A stretch of 64,000 bases of DNA from Hyaloscypha bicolor E (taxonomy: Eukaryota > Ascomycota > Leotiomycetes > Helotiales > Hyaloscyphaceae), in assembly GCF_002865645.1 (NCBI RefSeq), contig NW_020194620.1, positions 1,805,353 to 1,869,352 of the forward strand, in the 5' to 3' direction. Both the position numbers and the translations under genes were made by a program. The notes beneath the pieces are model-generated. The model had not been told where the DNA came from and searched no databases. It saw only the letters and a program-made list of their open reading frames with translations. Positions 3,222-60,612 of the stretch are shown here, in pieces (within the stretch, counting starts at the first letter, position 1; each line of letters begins with the position of its first letter).

Positions 3222-5954
3222 CTTGAACATAGCAAACGCTCACCGAAGTATTATATGACAGTTGCGTGATGAATTGAAATTGTTAGTGAGAAGAGCTGTC
3301 GCCCAGCTGAGCCGATGTTCTTCGAGGCTGGAAAAAGCAAGGCTTGCACATGTGTCTTGCATTGCCACCACAACACTGGTGTTGGGCTTTTGGGCAAAGC
3401 TGTCAGAGGAAGACCTACCAATTTTGACAACCCTCGCGGTGGACAAAAAAAAGCGACCCCAAATTTTCAATGTCCCAATTCAAGTTGGACCATCCCAGGT
3501 GCTTTCCCTTCGAGTATGCCGTCGATAAATGGCACATTTAAAGTCTACTTCCTCCGAGTGTCCCCGAGCTTTTAGACCACTTGAATACTGTCTCCCCCCA
3601 ATGTTCAACATTGGCTGGAGACATTGATTAGTGCGCTTTTTTCGTCCACCACGAGCAACCATAAGAGCACCTTGTGAAGATAGAAATAAGAAATAGCAAG
3701 CGGTAAAGACGTATGAAACTCGAGAATAACCTAGTAGCGATCGTGACTCTAAAACGGCCATGTCGACCTTGAAGAGTTATGAGGCACTTCACAATCTCAC
3801 GGCTTGGTATATGCAGCCTGAAATGATACCGAAGGTATTGAAATTTGGGGCGACGAAGAGAAAACCAAAAGGAAGGAAGGAAGGGCTCGGTGAAATTGTC
3901 AATAGCCCAAGGACGAGTAAAAGGAGGAGTCGCAATCGAAGTCCAGCTGCGACTTCAGTTGTCAGCTCTGAGTTGAGACTTGCATCATAATCGCGCACTG
4001 TTACACAACTGCCTTTGCTGAACTGGAGTACATGGTACATTATGGAACGATGAATGTAGTGAAGAATAAAAAAATGATAACCCGAAATTGCCACCTCGCA
4101 TGGGAATAGCCCGAGACCGCGGAGATGCTATCCTGTCCAAGTGAACACACTCGTACCATGCCATTGAATTACCCTTCCGGCGATCATAGACTAAAGCTTT
4201 ATGCATATAAAGTTGTTGGCCGCTGCAACGGGAAGACGCAGTTCGAGTCAATATCTGCAAGCCAAATCATTGCAAGTCAAGCAATCAGGATGACTTCGCC
4301 TCGTCATTATCGATGAAACGTAGTAGACGGGCTGACGGCGCGGTGACCGAGATTCGCCCCTGAGCCAAGACAGACCTCAGCTACACAAAATGTTGCTCAG
4401 CATAACGCATTCGTTGAGCAGCTCGAGTTATTACGAGTTCATTCTCCACTACCCCCTCCTTCAACAAATCTGCGGATTGCCCAAAGCGGCAGTCCGGCGG
4501 CGTGGTCAGGAAAAGCCTCACTGCAAGGACTTTCCAAAACAGGAGGTGGATGACACCCTACGTACATATAATAGCACTCATTCCAGGGGTGAAGAGACAG
4601 ACTTTCACATGCAATTCAAGTTGCAACAATGCTAGGACACGGACAGCCTTCTGGTCCGCTGTCGTCGGGCTCGTGCCGTTGACACGGCGGGTAAAAGCTC
4701 TTTGCCCCCGTGCACGCAAGGCTACTGATAGAGAATAAATGAATGTAGTTTTTCTATTTAGCGGCGGCAACTGAAGGAAGTTCCCTACCAGCTGGCATAT
4801 GGAGCCGTGGCAATCAAATGTCGTCCCGACCCTGGCCGATTGTGGATCTCCGTTCCCTCCGGAACCAGGCCAGTACCCGAAACGAAATGTCGTGCAGGAG
4901 CTACCCCCTCCTTGAAAATTTCAAAGCATGTGCAAACAACTCTGATAGATCCTCAAGAACGATTGACAGAAAGAGAAGGGCGCGTATACGACCCAATTTT
5001 CGTGCCGTGTTATTCCCCGAAGGCTGGAGCTGAGCTGCTCTCGTTGAACCACTTGAGACACTGATAGGTCGACTACCTTGCCATTGCTTGGCCTTCCAAT
5101 TCTTATCCGCATCTCTAAGATGTTGAATTGGCTGATTTGATCCATCTCCTGTTGCGTCGGCCCTGTGGATACGAACGAAGCGAGCGATGCAATTATGTTG
5201 TTCGTAAAAATCCTTCATTTGGAGCGGCCCCGCGAGAGAGATGTCGTTGCGAGCAATCAATAGATCTTCATCTCGGTACCCCCCTCTAGCAAGCCCATTT
5301 CGACGTGTCATATTTGGGCTGAACCGACCACAGGGGAACTTCGAACGGGCTGCCCGGCGATCTGGTCGCTTGGCCGCGCCCCCGTATATGCTGGGATGGT
5401 CTGATATCATCTCTCGATGAAGAGGGGTAAAGTGGGGATGTTGAGCTCTTCACTGGATGAACAGCAACACAGCATTTGTTCGATGTGGAAGCACGTTGCT
5501 TGATGTGTGCAGAAGCAATTGGATGTGATAGAGTAGTGTTGAAACGCACATATATGGCGTCGATAGGTGAGAGTGGAGGCAGCCCGGTTGTAGCCGCAGC
5601 GCACGGTGCGTTTGATGTACCTAGTACTTCCAAACAAGGGAGACAGCCCGCAATTTACTAAGTACACGGGAGATCGTCGGAGCTCCCCGCATAGCCATTC
5701 GGGAATTTTTGAGGCCGCAAGGGAAAGTCACGATCGTTCGGTGGGTTGGCGGAAACGCTTTCATGAGTCCTGAGTCCTGATGCCGGCACTGCGGCAGTGG
5801 AAAACACGAGATGGCATTTGGTGGGGCTTGGCCTGCAGCTTTCCTTGCAGAGCATGGTCTGCAACCGTGGTCCGTTGGAGCGACAGCGCAGAAAGAATAG
5901 GGTGGGTGAGGGTAGGGTATGATATGGCTTCCAGGATCAAAATAACCGCACATT

Positions 5955-6022: not shown

Positions 6023-8812
6023 GCAAGACCTGGAAGAGAAGGCTTCGTAGATAAGGCAACTTGGTGGGTCGCACATCCCGCAGCCTGACTGCAACACCAG
6101 CTTCTTATCTCGGGTTACAGCCTGACTGCTGAGAGAACAATGCGAGGGCCATTCCACGCTGGACTGCCTTTCAGCTGCCGGTGTCATCTGACTGTCGAGG
6201 GAAAGCGATAAGCGATAAGAACCCCCCGGATACTCCAGGCCCTGGCGTATGCAAGAAAGGCCGTACACAACGGCTTCTGCCAATAACGATTACGTTGTGT
6301 GAAAAAGTGGGGGTGGGATATCGCGAGGTTTCTTTGAAAGTGGTGGCTGCTCACTGCCCAGAATCCTCTTCTGCCTAGCACCACTCCCGCAGCGCCAAGG
6401 GGTTTCGTTGATTTGAATTATTTGTGGTGTCATGCAGCCCAAATACAACCTCCAAGGGTTCCGAAAGCAGGTTTATTTGGCGGGAAAGCCGGCAGCTGCT
6501 TCCCCGAAGCGGTTCCGCATCCTAAGGGGCTAATGTAAATTGTGGCTGGAGCCTGTGCAGGCCTCTCGTGCAGGCATCTGAGGTATCGAGAAGTACTAAA
6601 GTCCCAAATTCCCATAGCTGACCCTGCAACTGTTGTTATGCAACCCCTCAGGCTTGTCAGGTTACATCCCGAGCCCTTCAATAACGCCTCGCAGCAACCT
6701 GACTGATATGGAAGAAGCTGGCTCCGAATCCAGTCAGTTGTCGTGATAGAAGGATCCTAGTATCGCAGCTGAGCAGTTCACCTCGAGAGTCCAAGATGAC
6801 TGACAGGGTTGGCATTCAACAAGCCGGGGCGATTTGTTCAGAGCCAATTGAGGATGCTATGCATTTCTGATAGGGTCGGCCAGGGGCCTGCTCGAGGCTT
6901 GCGCTCAACAGTCCTCCATCCCTGGACGAGATTCAAGGAGCTTTCCTCCATCGCCTTCGATTGGTATTGATTGCAATAAGTGCTCTTTGTGCGTCAAAGA
7001 AGTGGAGAACCTTATCAAGATGGTTGATTCAGCTTCTCAATCTTCTCCACTAGAGACCTGAGTCTCCATACACGTAGCATCATTAAGGTATCCACACTTA
7101 GCCGCCCCTAGGCATAGAATAAATCTTCCCCCGGTTTGAACGAGCGGAAGAGCATAGAGGGCTCCTCGAAAAGACAGAGAGACATAAACCTTCTTCAGAG
7201 TTGGCGGCTGGCCAATTTCGGACGTCTCATCACAATAAATGGTGTGAACTATGATTCTCGGTCAACATTAACATCTACCAAGTTGGCAAGATCGAGAATT
7301 GTGTCTGCCGATCATTTCTCTTACTGGGTCTAGATTGTGCCTCCAACAGAGTTCACAGCTCAAAAACAGTTGTGGATGCCGTGCACTAATTCGGGCATGA
7401 GATGCGGAGTCCAGCGAGGCTCACAGCTGCAGAACAGTTCAGAAACGCGGTACATAGAGCATAACCAACCAAACACCTGCACATCCACGAAAGACAGGTC
7501 TGTTAATCTGTAGAAGGCTACACAGCCTTGGACACAAGCATTGGTCAGACCCACGATCGGCCTCGTTCACCAGGGAACAACCCGGCTTCAAGTAGTGTCA
7601 TCGGCTCTCGAAGAAAGGTTGGACTAGTCTTCCAGTTGTCTCTTAACATAGATCGGAGTTGCATGACAGCGTCCTGCCTTCTAGAAAGATTGAACAGTCT
7701 TGCTCAGGATAGAATGACTTCCTAGGACACCACAATTAGGAAGAGCTAATCTTGGAGACGCGCCAATCTCCCGTAGGCCCGCTGTCTTTCCCGATCCTAT
7801 TTCGGGACACTCAGTAGCATGATGGCTTCTGCAAGAGTAGAAGAGAAGCGCCGAGTATTGGGCCAGGACGCTGGCCTCGGTGTCCACTCTGCTCTGCCGA
7901 AAATAGCAATTGAAAATGAAATTTCGAATTTGAATTTGGGAAAGACCAAGGAAAAGGGCCATGCGAGATAGACGCTTGTGAGTAAATTATTGCGCCATCA
8001 GGAACAGTACCCCGTGCAACATAAGAATTACTGTACATCCTGTGTTTATCGCTTGTCGTCTCAAGGCTGCCAGGACAGCTGGCTCGATGTCATTTCCAAG
8101 AGCTAGGAGATTTGGAAGTCTCCGAGATCTGCTAATTATGATATCTGGTTCTAGCTCAGCGCAATTTATTCCCTCACCCCAGGCTGGGCCTTCACTTGAG
8201 AGATGGTTGGCGGACGACGCACCAGCTGTGGCGGCGGTGCCTTCGAGAAAAGTTTTCGCGTCTGAGCCGTCCCAAAACCTTGCTCGCCCGTGACGTGCGG
8301 TACCCAGTGAACGTGGACTGTGGCTCGTAGAATCGCTCGCCGTTTTGCTTGGTGCAAGTTATTACGTGTTGCGAAGCTCAGACCGCTGAGCTCCTTCAGG
8401 CTCCTTTTTCGACAGCAAGAACGACAGCGATTTTAATATGAGGCTGATTGTTGGACCGTGATTCGATGAATTACCCAACGTGTGGTGAGGCGCCCCCACG
8501 GCCGACCCAGGTTTCTGAGGCCCGGTGAAACCTGCCGTGGAGAAGTGGCTTGAGAGCGTTTGTGTGTGACAACCCCCACACTCGGTTGTTCGGGTGAGAT
8601 CGCTGGGCCAAGGTGACGCCACACAGTTTTTTGGCCAGACCGTCGTAGCGGGCAGTTTTTGTGGGGACCGTTTCGGTAGTGAAGGGGCCTTGCGTACTGT
8701 GAGGGGATTCCCTCGCCATCCATCATCCATGCAGCCTGGATTCCTGGAAGGCTGGAAGGAGTGATCTTCTTCGTTTGCGGCACTGCAGACCTGCCCCCCG
8801 GTGGATGATGCT

Positions 8813-56628: not shown

Positions 56629-59600
56629 TTAGTTGAAAGCCTTGGTGAAGGTTGTGACAACGTCCTTCAATCTCGCCTCGAGGTCCTTGCTTAACGCCCC
56701 CTCCTTGTCAATTGTAGCCAGAAGATCCGACTCGTTAGTCTTCAAGTGTGCAATGAAGTCGGCTTCCCATTGCAGGATCTTATTGACTGGAACACTATCG
56801 AGGTGACCATTGACACCGGCATAGATGAGGGGAACCATTTCGTTGACGGCCATAGGAGAGTATTGCTTTTGCTTGAGGAGTTCGGTCAACTGCAAGGAGA
56901 TGCTATTAGTTACATTTCTTACTTAAAAATTCAGGAAAATATAACTTACTCGTTCGCCACGGTTCAGGGTTTGCTTGGTAGCGGCATCCAAATCTGAACC
57001 GAATTGAGCGAAAGCAGCAACTTCACGGTATTGGGCCAAGAAAAGCTTCAATGAACCGGCAACTTGCTTCATGGCCTTAAGTTGGGCAGCGGAACCGACA
57101 CGAGATACGGAAAGACCGACGTTAATGGCAGGTCGAACACCCTTGTAGAAAAGCTCGGCCTCCAAGAAGATTTGACCATCGGTAATTGAAATGACGTTGG
57201 TTGGGATATAGGCAGACACATCACCACCTTGGGTCTCGATAATGGGAAGAGCAGTCAAGGATCCACCACCGTGTTTGTCGCTCATCTTGGCGGCACGCTC
57301 GAGGAGACGAGAGTGGAGGTAGAAAACGTCACCGGGGTAAGCCTCACGTCCAGGAGGACGACGGAGAAGGAGAGACATTTGACGGTATGCAACTGATCAT
57401 GACATTAGTTTGTGAGATCTCTTCAAGGGCGGAGAATTACTGACCAGCCTGCTTGGAAAGGTCATCAAATATAATGACAGCGTGCTTTCCGTTGTCTCTG
57501 TTCAAGGAGTCAGTAGGTGATCAATGAGATTGGAATGGAGGAGTATCTTACCGGAACCACTCGCCCATGGAACAACCTTTATCAAAATGAGTTAGCAGGA
57601 TAAACAAGGTAATGATGTATTAATGATAAGTCGACAACAGAATGAAAGGTTAAGTTGAAGAATTGGCCGCCAGTGCAGCCTTCTTCAGATGACGTTTGGA
57701 AGTCTTGTGGACGGAAAGCGCTGCTGGTGAGGCGAGACTCAACCCATACACTGAGCAATGGTTCTTCTTTGCCTTCCTTGCTTTGTCGGCACATCTGCGC
57801 AAAGCAAGTGTACCAGCTTTGATCAGAGAATGGACGCCGTCGATTACGGCAAGTTGACGGGCATGCGCAGCAGTCTTGGGATGTTTCGCCAATGCCCCAG
57901 GAGAATCGAAGGGCATTTGGCAGTCATCGCAATTGTGGCGCTTCTCTTTCTTGACTTTGCTCCTGGTTTTCTTTCGGATAGCAACGATTTTCTCGGGATT
58001 GTTATGAGCCCATCTCTTTGATTGTTCACGGGCACGAGACAGATAGCCTTCAAGGTCTTCTTCACGTTCGCGGTCGAACCTTGCCTTGTTGCATTTGTTG
58101 ATGGATTGTCGGATTTTGGCCTTGCGAATCTTCTCCATGGCTTCAAGCTGTTGTGGTGTGAGGTTGAGTTCGTCACCGACGCCTTCAGACGGTAGAAGGT
58201 GGGAACATAGCGGACCCCAAGTGACTGAGTCTCGAGTCCAAGGCATGAAACCGCTCCAGATAGGCTCCATGATGGATTTGAAGCAGGCATAGAAAACTGC
58301 GGTGAAGAAAGCTTCGAGACAGAGGAAGAGTAGTCGTCCCAGTGGGACGCGTACAGCGCCTGGCAGAGGAGCCCAGCACAACATTCCGATGTGTAGAAGT
58401 TCGTAGTCTCGTTCATAAGCAAGACGAACAAAGCGAGGAAGTTGAGGGTGTGTTCTGTCTTTGTAATGGACAGTTCGACAAGTTACCCCATATGTTGCAT
58501 TGGTGCCACAGCCAATGTATAGGTGGTAGTTGTTTTCGAGGTCGACGAAGACAAGAGTATAAACGCCCCATGTTCTCTTCTTTGGTGCCGGCAGACCGAG
58601 AAAGAAGTCAATTGATGGAAGAGTATCAGAGGATAGCATAGCAAGCAAGCCCTCGGGGAAGAGAAGTTGCAATGTGAGCCACAGTTGATTGATGATTGGC
58701 TCGAGAACCACCTTGTAGACTGGATTGAGGTACCATTCGGCGGCGCCGATGTTGATCAACTTCAAACAGTAGGCAATGATGACCTGATGCAGTCTTGTAG
58801 CCATGGTGACCTATCATATATTAGCACAAGCTTGATCACGGAAGGATCTGGACTTACTGCTGGGGCACGTATGCTCAATGTCTTGCAGCTGCTGAGTACC
58901 TGGGAATCGACGGTGGTGATTTGGACGCTGTCCAGACTAATTCTGACGCTGTCTGACAGGAGGTGTGCAGATATGGCACCGACACCCTGAATTCCTCCAG
59001 GCAGTGTAGTATCGAAGACAATATAGTACAGGAGACACAACTGAAGGGTGCTCGTTGAGGAGGTGGGGAGGTTGTCGTGAGGTTGTCCAGGAGAAGAGCA
59101 GAAGACGACGAGCAGAGGTTATAACCTCTGCCTCTGCCTCTGCAAAGGCAAGAGCATCCAGGGCAGTTGCCATCATCTGAAGGTTGATGGGGAAGGTGCA
59201 CCCACGCCTTGCGTGGGTGCTGGCACGTTGTACCACAAATGAAGAAAGAGAGAAGAGAAAATGGGGGGAACTTACCAGTAAACGGGGCAATGTACTGCAG
59301 GGGCTTTGAGGTCATGGAATTAGTATGGACTTTTTCTTAACGTCTGAGGATCGAAGGACGGAGACAACTTACTGCGGCTTCTGAGGCGGTAGCGGCAACG
59401 ATAATCGAGTACTTCATAGCATCGTTCTCCTCGAGGGTCTTGACAAGCTGGGCAACGGTAGATCGCTTTTGTCCAACGGCAACGTACACGCAGTAAAGCT
59501 TCTTGGTCTCGTCGTTTCCGTCGTTCCATCGCTTTTGATTGAGCATGGCATCGAGGGCAACGGCAGTCTTTCCGGTTTGACGGTCGCCGATAATCAATTC

Positions 59601-60612
59601 ACGCTGACCACGTCCAATGGGCACCATGGCATCAACTGACTTGAGACCAGTCTGTACAGGCTGGTTGACAGATCGTCGGGGAAGAATACCGGGAGCCTTC
59701 AGCTGGGCACGACGCTTTTCAGTGGTCTTGATAGGTCCCTTGCCATCGATTGGGTTGCCGAGAGCATCAACGACACGACCAAGCATCTCAATCCCGACTG
59801 GAACATCGACCTGTACATTGTGAGCTATGTTCCGAGTTCTTCCCGTATATCAAATACTTACAATTTCTCCGGTACGCTTGACGGTCTCGCCTTCCTTGAC
59901 CAAACGATCAGAACCGAAGAGCACAACACCGACCTGGCCAGCTTCCAAATTCATGCACATGCCCTTGACACCTGAGGCGAACCTATGTTTTATGAGTTGC
60001 TGAGGGATTTTCGTCTGAAGCTGTGGACTTACTCGACAAGCTCCTCAGCTTGGACGTTGGCCATACCGTGGACACGAGCGATACCATCACTATTGTAAAT
60101 ACAAGTTAGCACCCAATTCCATGACCCGTCATCATTGTAGGGTATGCGTGGTCGATGAAGATTGTTTCGCACTGTTGCAACGTACCCTACAGACAAGACA
60201 CGACCAGTCTCAGCAAGACTGGCCTCCTCTTGCACGCCTCTGATTCGCTGCTCGAGAATGGATGAGACCTCGGTCGGCGAAGCCTTTGCATCTGCAGCAT
60301 AATATCGTTTTGCTGCGTTGAAAGCAGCTGGGGCAGCGGCCGGTCGTCCCTGGGAGAAAACGTCAGTTAGCCGAAGCCCGAAAAACATGAACCGGAGCTG
60401 CTGGAGCTGTGTTGAGCTCTCCCAACCATCAACACGCATCGGTCTCCTGGGTGGGTTGAGCTCAATTGAGCTTGCAGAAGCAGCGCGAGCTCATCAGAAG
60501 GTTTGATTGCAGCTTGGAAGTCGGCAATCGAGGCGGTTGGGGTACTCACGGCGGATCTGGCAGAGATTGCTCCCACCGTCCGGGACGACTGGCGCAGGGC
60601 GTTTCTGAACAT
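56629..60612 (-). CDS. ATP1: Mitochondrial ATP synthase F1 subunit alpha
   Basis: Ten-exon model complement(56629..56889, 56950..57392, 57445..57497, 57552..57576, 59276..59303, 59373..59810, 59862..59982, 60033..60089, 60186..60349, 60550..60612). The exons sum to 1653 nt, 550 aa, the usual length for fungal alpha subunits, with every junction in phase. The N-terminus [20 protein letters not shown] is a mitochondrial presequence. Landmarks include [48 protein letters not shown], the Walker [26 protein letters not shown] joined to [33 protein letters not shown] and [20 protein letters not shown]. The protein forms the alpha3beta3 hexamer of F1 in the matrix. Oddity: the intron between the 28-nt and 25-nt exons is about 1.7 kb and carries its own ORF, while the other introns are about 50-200 nt. 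Confidence 0.96.
57650..58804 (-). CDS. GIY-YIG-type nuclease with zinc fingers, nested in ATP1 intron
   Basis: 384-aa frame from the ATG at 58804, same strand as ATP1. Around residues 80-110, [20 protein letters not shown] carries GVY and YIG in the GIY-YIG arrangement. An Arg follows (VTCRTVHY), then [11 protein letters not shown] with a Glu at the place of the metal-binding Glu. After about residue 215 comes a highly basic helical region, then a C2H2-like finger ([18 protein letters not shown], then TAAH). A second finger-like repeat, [18 protein letters not shown], has Tyr in place of its second Cys. The frame probably starts further upstream. A perfect 47-nt intron (58811-58857, GTAAGT...GCTAAT...ATAG) joins in phase to a frame containing [20 protein letters not shown]. 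An ATG at 59176 could begin a first exon ([18 protein letters not shown]), though the next junction is ambiguous. Function as a homing endonuclease is inferred. Confidence 0.72.
   Translation of the reverse strand: MATRLHQVIIAYCLKLINIGAAEWYLNPVYKVVLEPIINQLWLTLQLLFPEGLLAMLSSDTLPSIDFFLGLPAPKKRTWGVYTLVFVDLENNYHLYIGCGTNATYGVTCRTVHYKDRTHPQLPRFVRLAYERDYELLHIGMLCWAPLPGAVRVPLGRLLFLCLEAFFTAVFYACFKSIMEPIWSGFMPWTRDSVTWGPLCSHLLPSEGVGDELNLTPQQLEAMEKIRKAKIRQSINKCNKARFDREREEDLEGYLSRAREQSKRWAHNNPEKIVAIRKKTRSKVKKEKRHNCDDCQMPFDSPGALAKHPKTAAHARQLAVIDGVHSLIKAGTLALRRCADKARKAKKNHCSVYGLSLASPAALSVHKTSKRHLKKAALAANSST
59112..59131. repeat. Perfect 20-bp palindrome in the ATP1 intron
   Basis: GCAGAGGTTATAACCTCTGC reads identically on both strands. 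It is followed directly by two further CTCTGC units, so the right arm is part of a short CTCTGC repeat. It lies about 145 nt inside the intron's 5' end. Confidence 0.9.
59198..59220. repeat. Perfect hairpin, 10-bp stem and 3-nt loop
   Basis: GCACCCACGC, loop CTT, GCGTGGGTGC. It is about 55 nt from the 5' splice site of the long ATP1 intron and would form a very stable stem in the pre-mRNA. Confidence 0.9.

Follow-up and report, generated by a model that had tools for sequence, protein, structure and literature searches.

How does a gene resembling that of a homing endonuclease come to lie within a spliceosomal intron of a conserved nuclear gene? The question is raised by a 64,000-nucleotide (nt) stretch of the Hyaloscypha bicolor E genome (contig NW_020194620.1, forward-strand positions 1,805,353 to 1,869,352; the window), in which ATP1 is interrupted by a 1.7-kb interval carrying an open reading frame (ORF) with GIY-YIG and zinc-finger features. 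The answer we favor, at a probability of roughly 0.8, is that a housekeeping gene of the nucleus here contains a spliceosomal homing intron, which would be spliced from the host transcript, would encode an enzyme cutting uninterrupted alleles, and would be copied into them in a biased manner. This reading is supported by sequence and predicted structure, namely the fold of the encoded protein, the anatomy of the intron, a set of 11 such introns in 10 genes, flanks shared by part of them, recurrence at the same sites, and a range of decay states. The features of the locus are as follows.

56629..60612, minus strand: host gene ATP1, for the alpha subunit of mitochondrial ATP synthase, start codon through stop codon, from reading frames and alignment to a solved alpha chain around the junction.
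57577..59275, minus strand: spliceosomal-type intron of 1,699 nt with the endonuclease gene, GTAAGT...AAAG, from sequence reading and junction alignment.
59270..59275, minus strand: 5′ splice site GTAAGT of this intron, from sequence.
57591..57595, minus strand: CTAAC resembling a branch site, its start 19 nt from the end of the intron, from sequence.
59276..59303, minus strand: 28-nt ATP1 exon 5′ of the insertion, from exon reading.
57552..57576, minus strand: 25-nt ATP1 exon 3′ of the insertion, CSMGEWFR, from exon reading.
57650..58804, minus strand: GIY-YIG/C2H2 ORF of 384 amino acids, including the stop codon, from frame reading and relatives.
58184..58582, minus strand: predicted GIY-YIG nuclease domain, residues about 75-207, from an AlphaFold2 model, the match to I-TevI 1mk0/1ln0, conserved residues, and a weak profile match.
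57857..57937, minus strand: first C2H2 finger, residues 290-316, from domain scans and alignment.
57689..57763, minus strand: second finger, degenerate in the ATP1 copy (Tyr for Cys, residue 353), from alignment.
58811..58857, minus strand: intron-like stretch of 47 nt (GTAAGT...CTAAT...TAG) shortly before the start of the ORF, a possible leader intron by sequence pattern only.

Across 114 residues, ATP1 with 59275..57577 removed aligned gap-free with the alpha chain of a solved ATP synthase. The lengths of three other ATP1 introns were 69, 54, and 52 nt, versus 1,699 nt for the ORF-bearing intron. A group I or group II self-splicing intron was considered for this interval and rejected, as Rfam gave no match for the window, for ten loci of 10 kb each, or, with E relaxed to 1, for positions 57400-59450; with no ribozyme found, splicing has to come from the spliceosome. 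Judged from the DNA, by its GT-AG ends, branch site, and exactly restored host protein, the interval is a spliceosomal intron that would be removed from the RNA.

The ORF lies on the same strand as its host (coding part 58804..57653, stop codon 57652..57650), and its stop-free frame spans 386 codons, against a mean of 126 and a maximum of 306 when the ATP1 intron was simulated 1,000 times with a first-order Markov model. Pfam and NCBIfam scans left the nuclease domain unnamed, and PF01541, the Pfam GIY-YIG model, had no match anywhere in the genome; the nuclease assignment rests on conserved residues and structure. Among non-gap rows of a 41-row family alignment, Y82, Y96, and G98 were each kept in 39/39, R110 in 39/40, and E164 in 40/40, while the first Gly of GIY was replaced by Ala in 30/39. 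The AlphaFold2 model of the ORF matched GIY-YIG domains, with I-TevI (1mk0/1ln0) ranked at the top, and by its residues and its domain fold, of the kind known from I-TevI, UvrC, and Slx1, the product is placed in the GIY-YIG superfamily as a predicted nuclease. In a profile search of the PDB (281 sequences, E ≤10), the best 60 of the 281 matched the finger region only (profile positions 244 onward) and none the nuclease part. The ligands of the first finger in the ATP1 copy are C292, C295, H308, and H314; residue 353 of the second finger, Tyr in this copy, is Cys in 32/33 non-gap rows, possibly marking the start of decay. Public protein data hold 44 relatives of the ORF family, and a public protein, P0001, is 86% identical to the ATP1 copy across the whole query. 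The initial annotation, which had read here a splice restoring the alpha subunit, a same-strand ORF with GVY...YIG, Arg, and Glu, and a C2H2-like finger, was borne out in these respects; the structural check that it proposed gave a GIY-YIG match, and a second, degenerate finger can be added.

Searches of the 82-Mb genome with seven protein queries identified at least 12 places belonging to this family, all such counts being lower bounds; 11 lie in introns of 10 conserved genes, and one is a stray fragment. The 12 places are the combined total of the seven queries, listed in full by no one query alone, and the last query added no place. The host genes are ATP1, VMA1 (V-ATPase A), MSH2, ACO1, GRS1, DED1, a gene that we take to be GCN1, SF3B1, CHC1 (two introns, CHC1a and CHC1b), and a gene presumed to be SSD1, and they lie on contigs of 1.5-6.5 million bases. 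All 11 ORF-bearing introns are on the host strand, have GT-AG ends, and measure 572-1,904 nt, and CTAAC or CTAAT begins 14-23 nt before the end in 11/11. CHC1 was found by 4/7 queries, and SSD1 by 1/7 (E 0.0036) plus a local search; membership of CHC1b is tentative, resting on a short finger match and flank likeness to CHC1a. Two finger-only matches (C46:1151444-1151701 and C56:690922-691176) stand outside the 12-place count. Solved proteins served as the reference for nine junctions (VMA1, MSH2, ACO1, GRS1, SF3B1, GCN1, CHC1a, CHC1b, and ATP1), that of MSH2 showing a 2-residue gap; the DED1 junction was compared with public DED1 models, and that of SSD1 is placed as we presume it to lie. In ACO1 the insertion is inside ANACGPC/IGQW (here and below, the slash marks the insertion point).

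Copies in these introns range from intact to vestigial. Full-length ORFs are open in 4/11 introns (ATP1, VMA1, the second MSH2 copy, and ACO1) and are 29-42% identical to one another. Decayed copies occupy the other 7/11: those in DED1, GRS1, GCN1, and SF3B1 are frameshifted, interrupted, or shortened, and those in CHC1a, SSD1, and CHC1b are relics, the last two being weak. An intact public protein of 414 amino acids, P0005, shares 90-93% identity with the broken DED1 copy across 255-283 residues. The classical homing cycle consists of invasion, fixation, and decay, and by analogy the spread from intact to relic is what that cycle predicts.

The insertion sites recur. ATP1 and VMA1 are paralogues of very ancient divergence, and their ORF-bearing introns interrupt the homologous nucleotide, in phase 1 of the same Gly codon (in VMA1, Y-T-G/I-T-V-A-E-Y-F-R-D). 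In a 51-tip tree, the ATP1 ORF grouped with its public relatives in a clade whose sister was the VMA1 ORF (support, 0.99). A search for gene models fused to the ORF identified seven public proteins, all from fungi, which are automatic protein models rather than DNA. In Lachnellula arida the ORF lies at the same DED1 site as in this genome (site 1, QIER/GCDLLVATPGR), with both sides visible; at this site only the upstream side is visible in Lachnellula willkommii, and only the downstream side in Cadophora gregata, the model of which is without the upstream exon. The four site-1 ORFs (those of this genome and of these three species) fall in one clade, together with four unplaced proteins (support, 1.00). 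Fusarium nematophilum and Pseudogymnoascus sp. VKM F-4515 have protein models in which the ORF occupies a second DED1 site (site 2, ATAVAA(R)/GLDIPNV) and which run continuously across site 1, where the ORF is absent and an ordinary intron may lie. In the 51-tip tree the site-2 ORFs form no clade of their own, so ORF phylogeny tracks the insertion site for site 1 alone, and sharing of site 1 may reflect vertical descent. In Elasticomyces elasticus the ORF is at the counterpart of site 2 in a different DEAD-box helicase (VASDVAA / GMDFPNV), and in a Glarea lozoyensis model it is fused to the DED1 C terminus. Three ORF-carrying species are classified in the Leotiomycetes, Sordariomycetes, and Dothideomycetes. 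Host-versus-ORF divergence was rejected as a test of horizontal transfer, as a 180-residue DED1 core is 99.4% identical to that of this genome in three species. The public records P0041 and P0045-P0050 are DEAD-box helicase models (one named 'C2H2 and C2HC zinc finger') and appear to be chimeras of host exons and an intron-borne endonuclease. The initial annotation had set its proposal against an ordinary stand-alone gene and had looked to other conserved genes and to variable occupancy among relatives; in this genome 11/12 places fall within introns of conserved genes, nine genes besides ATP1 are hosts, and occupancy differs between species at DED1 site 1, at the level of protein models, the ATP1 site itself standing apart from that result. 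None of the checks by which that annotation could have been refuted overturned it.

Two of the host genes also contain tandem introns. In VMA1 (locus L013, 4,100-4,330), a 6-nt microexon, GAATAA, separates the ORF-bearing intron from an 86-nt intron, the ends of which resemble by eye those of the ORF-bearing one. A two-exon splice was rejected; it loses two residues of the conserved YTGIT, so that the microexon is needed, and with it YTGITVAEYF is restored exactly. At the second site of this genome's own DED1 (locus L018, about 6,350-6,480), two similar short introns without ORFs surround a 2-nt microexon, GC; they sit where the F. nematophilum and Pseudogymnoascus models hold the ORF, and are perhaps the footprint left after its decay. 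Both microexon readings, taken from the genomic sequence, restore the host protein exactly.

How such an intron would persist can be outlined. The host spliceosome would remove it from the ATP1 transcript, which would leave ATP1 unharmed. The GIY-YIG endonuclease with its C2H2 fingers most likely recognizes the uninterrupted exon sequence around the insertion point, and would cut intronless alleles or look-alike sites in related genes, after which recombinational repair would copy the whole intron into the cut allele. Homologous insertion sites in paralogues (ATP1/VMA1 and DED1/a second DEAD-box gene) point to a target in conserved exon sequence; since such a target sits in essential genes, at codons that evolve slowly, intronless alleles would stay recognizable, and loss of the intron must be exact. 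Selfish introns that depend on the cell's splicing machinery appear to reside in nuclear genomes. On balance, and with less assurance than for the ATP1 interval itself, we consider it probable that a self-propagating family of spliceosomal introns exists in Pezizomycotina nuclei, in which the whole nuclease-carrying intron is mobile, jumps between ancient duplicates (ATP1/VMA1 and DED1/another DEAD-box helicase gene) by way of the DNA of their conserved motifs, and becomes an ordinary intron once the nuclease decays.

The main rival holds that the endonuclease gene invades pre-existing spliceosomal introns, the intron being a harmless, immobile landing site; we regard it as unlikely. The regions outside the ORFs were compared after removal of the ORFs and of 30-35 nt at each intron end, ORF edges being approximate in decayed copies. 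Scores of ≥26 bits were reached by 11/55 flank pairs, where 100 dinucleotide shuffles gave 0.22 on average and 2 at most, and the other 44/55 pairs lay below 26 bits. ACO1 and SF3B1 have 196 nt in common at 70%, CHC1a and CHC1b 81 nt at 80%, and genome-wide (E 0.01) the ACO1 flank matched elsewhere only SF3B1, and the CHC1a flank only CHC1b. Some noncoding flanks are thus common to different host genes, so the intron, and not the ORF alone, may be the mobile unit, flanks being shared for part of the introns. The ATP1 and VMA1 flanks scored 22.9 bits, within the shuffle range, and are alike no more than by chance, and bare short introns occupy the second site in this genome's DED1, where other fungi hold the ORF in their models; both help the rival. 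The rival is weakened by the flanks common to introns of unrelated genes and by the homologous positions in the two paralogue pairs, which point toward a conserved exon target, and the bare introns are equally explained as products of ORF loss.

A second possibility, which we consider improbable, is a DNA transposon or introner-like element whose ends are chance splice sites and whose GIY-YIG protein acts like a transposase, without site-specific homing. The many host genes within one genome would suit such an element, and the tandem similar introns, with microexons of 6 nt in VMA1 and 2 nt in DED1, could reflect small target duplications. Set against it are the recurrence of one DED1 site in the models of three further species, whose ORFs share a single clade, two paralogue pairs struck at homologous sites, the low identity among the four full-length copies (29-42%) where a burst would have left near-identical ones, and the 12 places found, a lower bound. 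That the ORFs belong to a fungal GIY-YIG/zinc-finger family with a cellular job, nested in introns by chance, is very improbable: some copies are intact, that of ATP1 has a possible leader intron, and 44 public relatives exist, but 11/12 places are introns of conserved genes, all on the same strand, 7/11 copies are decayed, and the occupied site varies between species.

The homing intron proposed here shares traits with several known systems. With I-TevI and other GIY-YIG homing endonucleases of group I introns in phages and fungal mitochondria, it shares the catalytic fold and residues and the location of the ORF inside an intron of a conserved gene, and enzymes of the I-TevI type carry a zinc finger in their linker, a further common trait; unlike those systems, the fungal family is nuclear, has tandem C2H2 fingers, and is without a detected ribozyme. 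Homing-endonuclease inteins such as that of yeast VMA1 invade conserved motifs of essential genes, and their presence varies among species, as is the case for the fungal introns, VMA1 included; however, the introns would be removed at the RNA rather than the protein level, belong to a different nuclease family, and use another VMA1 site. Introners and other mobile spliceosomal introns are gained by DNA mobility, as proposed here, and are mostly short, noncoding, and dispersed, whereas the fungal introns bring a nuclease gene of their own and are found repeatedly at given sites. Homing endonuclease genes (HEGs) interrupted by spliceosomal introns have been described in group I introns of nuclear ribosomal DNA (PMC9548176); as far as the portion of that report used here goes, the likeness is an HEG in nuclear DNA along with spliceosomal introns, and the difference is the carrier, here a spliceosomal-type intron in protein genes rather than a group I intron in ribosomal DNA.

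The closest known elements, on the evidence of the part of the report consulted, are the mirusvirus 'shintrons' of 2025, GT-AG spliceosomal introns without group I/II signatures that carry HNH, GIY-YIG, or other endonuclease genes (PMC12768974). They show target-gene specificity, 64.1% being in virion morphogenesis genes; homing was inferred rather than demonstrated, and spread is expected in coinfection (PMC12768974). The principle, a spliceosomal intron with a homing-type endonuclease gene, is the same; endonuclease-bearing spliceosomal introns are therefore not wholly without precedent, which corrects the initial annotation on this point (PMC12768974). Host domain, genes, nuclease architecture, and inheritance setting differ: the fungal hosts are nuclear housekeeping genes, not mirusvirus genomes (the only setting that this part of the report describes for shintrons), the family is GIY-YIG plus C2H2, and an intron would pass from one allele to another. 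When viral contigs, a set for which inclusion of mirusvirus genomes is not established, were scanned once with the family profile in a pattern-based search, no relative was identified, and so no viral source is supported. Searches of the open-access literature, judged by titles and abstract openings (the mirusvirus paper aside) and with bioRxiv and most subscription journals outside, brought up no description of an HEG in a spliceosomal intron of a nuclear gene of cells. The interpretation of the initial annotation, a host intron removed by the spliceosome and carrying a GIY-YIG ORF, is supported; homing itself, with cleavage and biased transmission, we infer.

How spliceosomal introns are gained, and why some lie at the codons that essential genes conserve most, are questions of long standing. 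If the proposal is correct, homing would be a direct and testable route of gain, with a defined nuclease target, host splicing, and a series from intact to relic, and a general route for new spliceosomal introns into the most conserved genes; many fungi can be crossed and transformed. It would also extend the 2025 mirusvirus proposal from environmental viral genomes to fungi, would make several published fungal gene models helicase/selfish nuclease chimeras, and would make available further natural enzymes of the GIY-YIG/zinc-finger type, directed to defined sequences within genes.

Some smaller observations concern individual copies. In the MSH2 intron (locus L014, 3,827-5,453), two members of the family lie in tandem, of which the first is partial and, across 90 residues, has 79% identity with the second; the ratio of nonsynonymous to synonymous divergence between them (0.092/0.118, 72 codons) was uninformative because one copy is partial and broken. 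The twelfth place, C16 (locus L016, about 4,783-5,121), retains a broken fragment, two short pieces of which show 71-82% identity to P0002, and is the sole stray among the 12, with no recognizable intron around it. The best solved chain for GCN1, 8i9x_LR (2,898 residues), is labeled 'Ribosomal protein L19' in its entry. The 47-nt intron-like element upstream of the ATP1-intron ORF hints at a transcript of its own, from which the ORF would be expressed. In the 5′ parts of the ACO1 and SF3B1 introns (loci L015 and L020), a common stretch resembles a leader intron, GTAAGTA...GGAACCAATGGCTTACA...CTAG, and is perhaps part of the ORF's own transcription unit.
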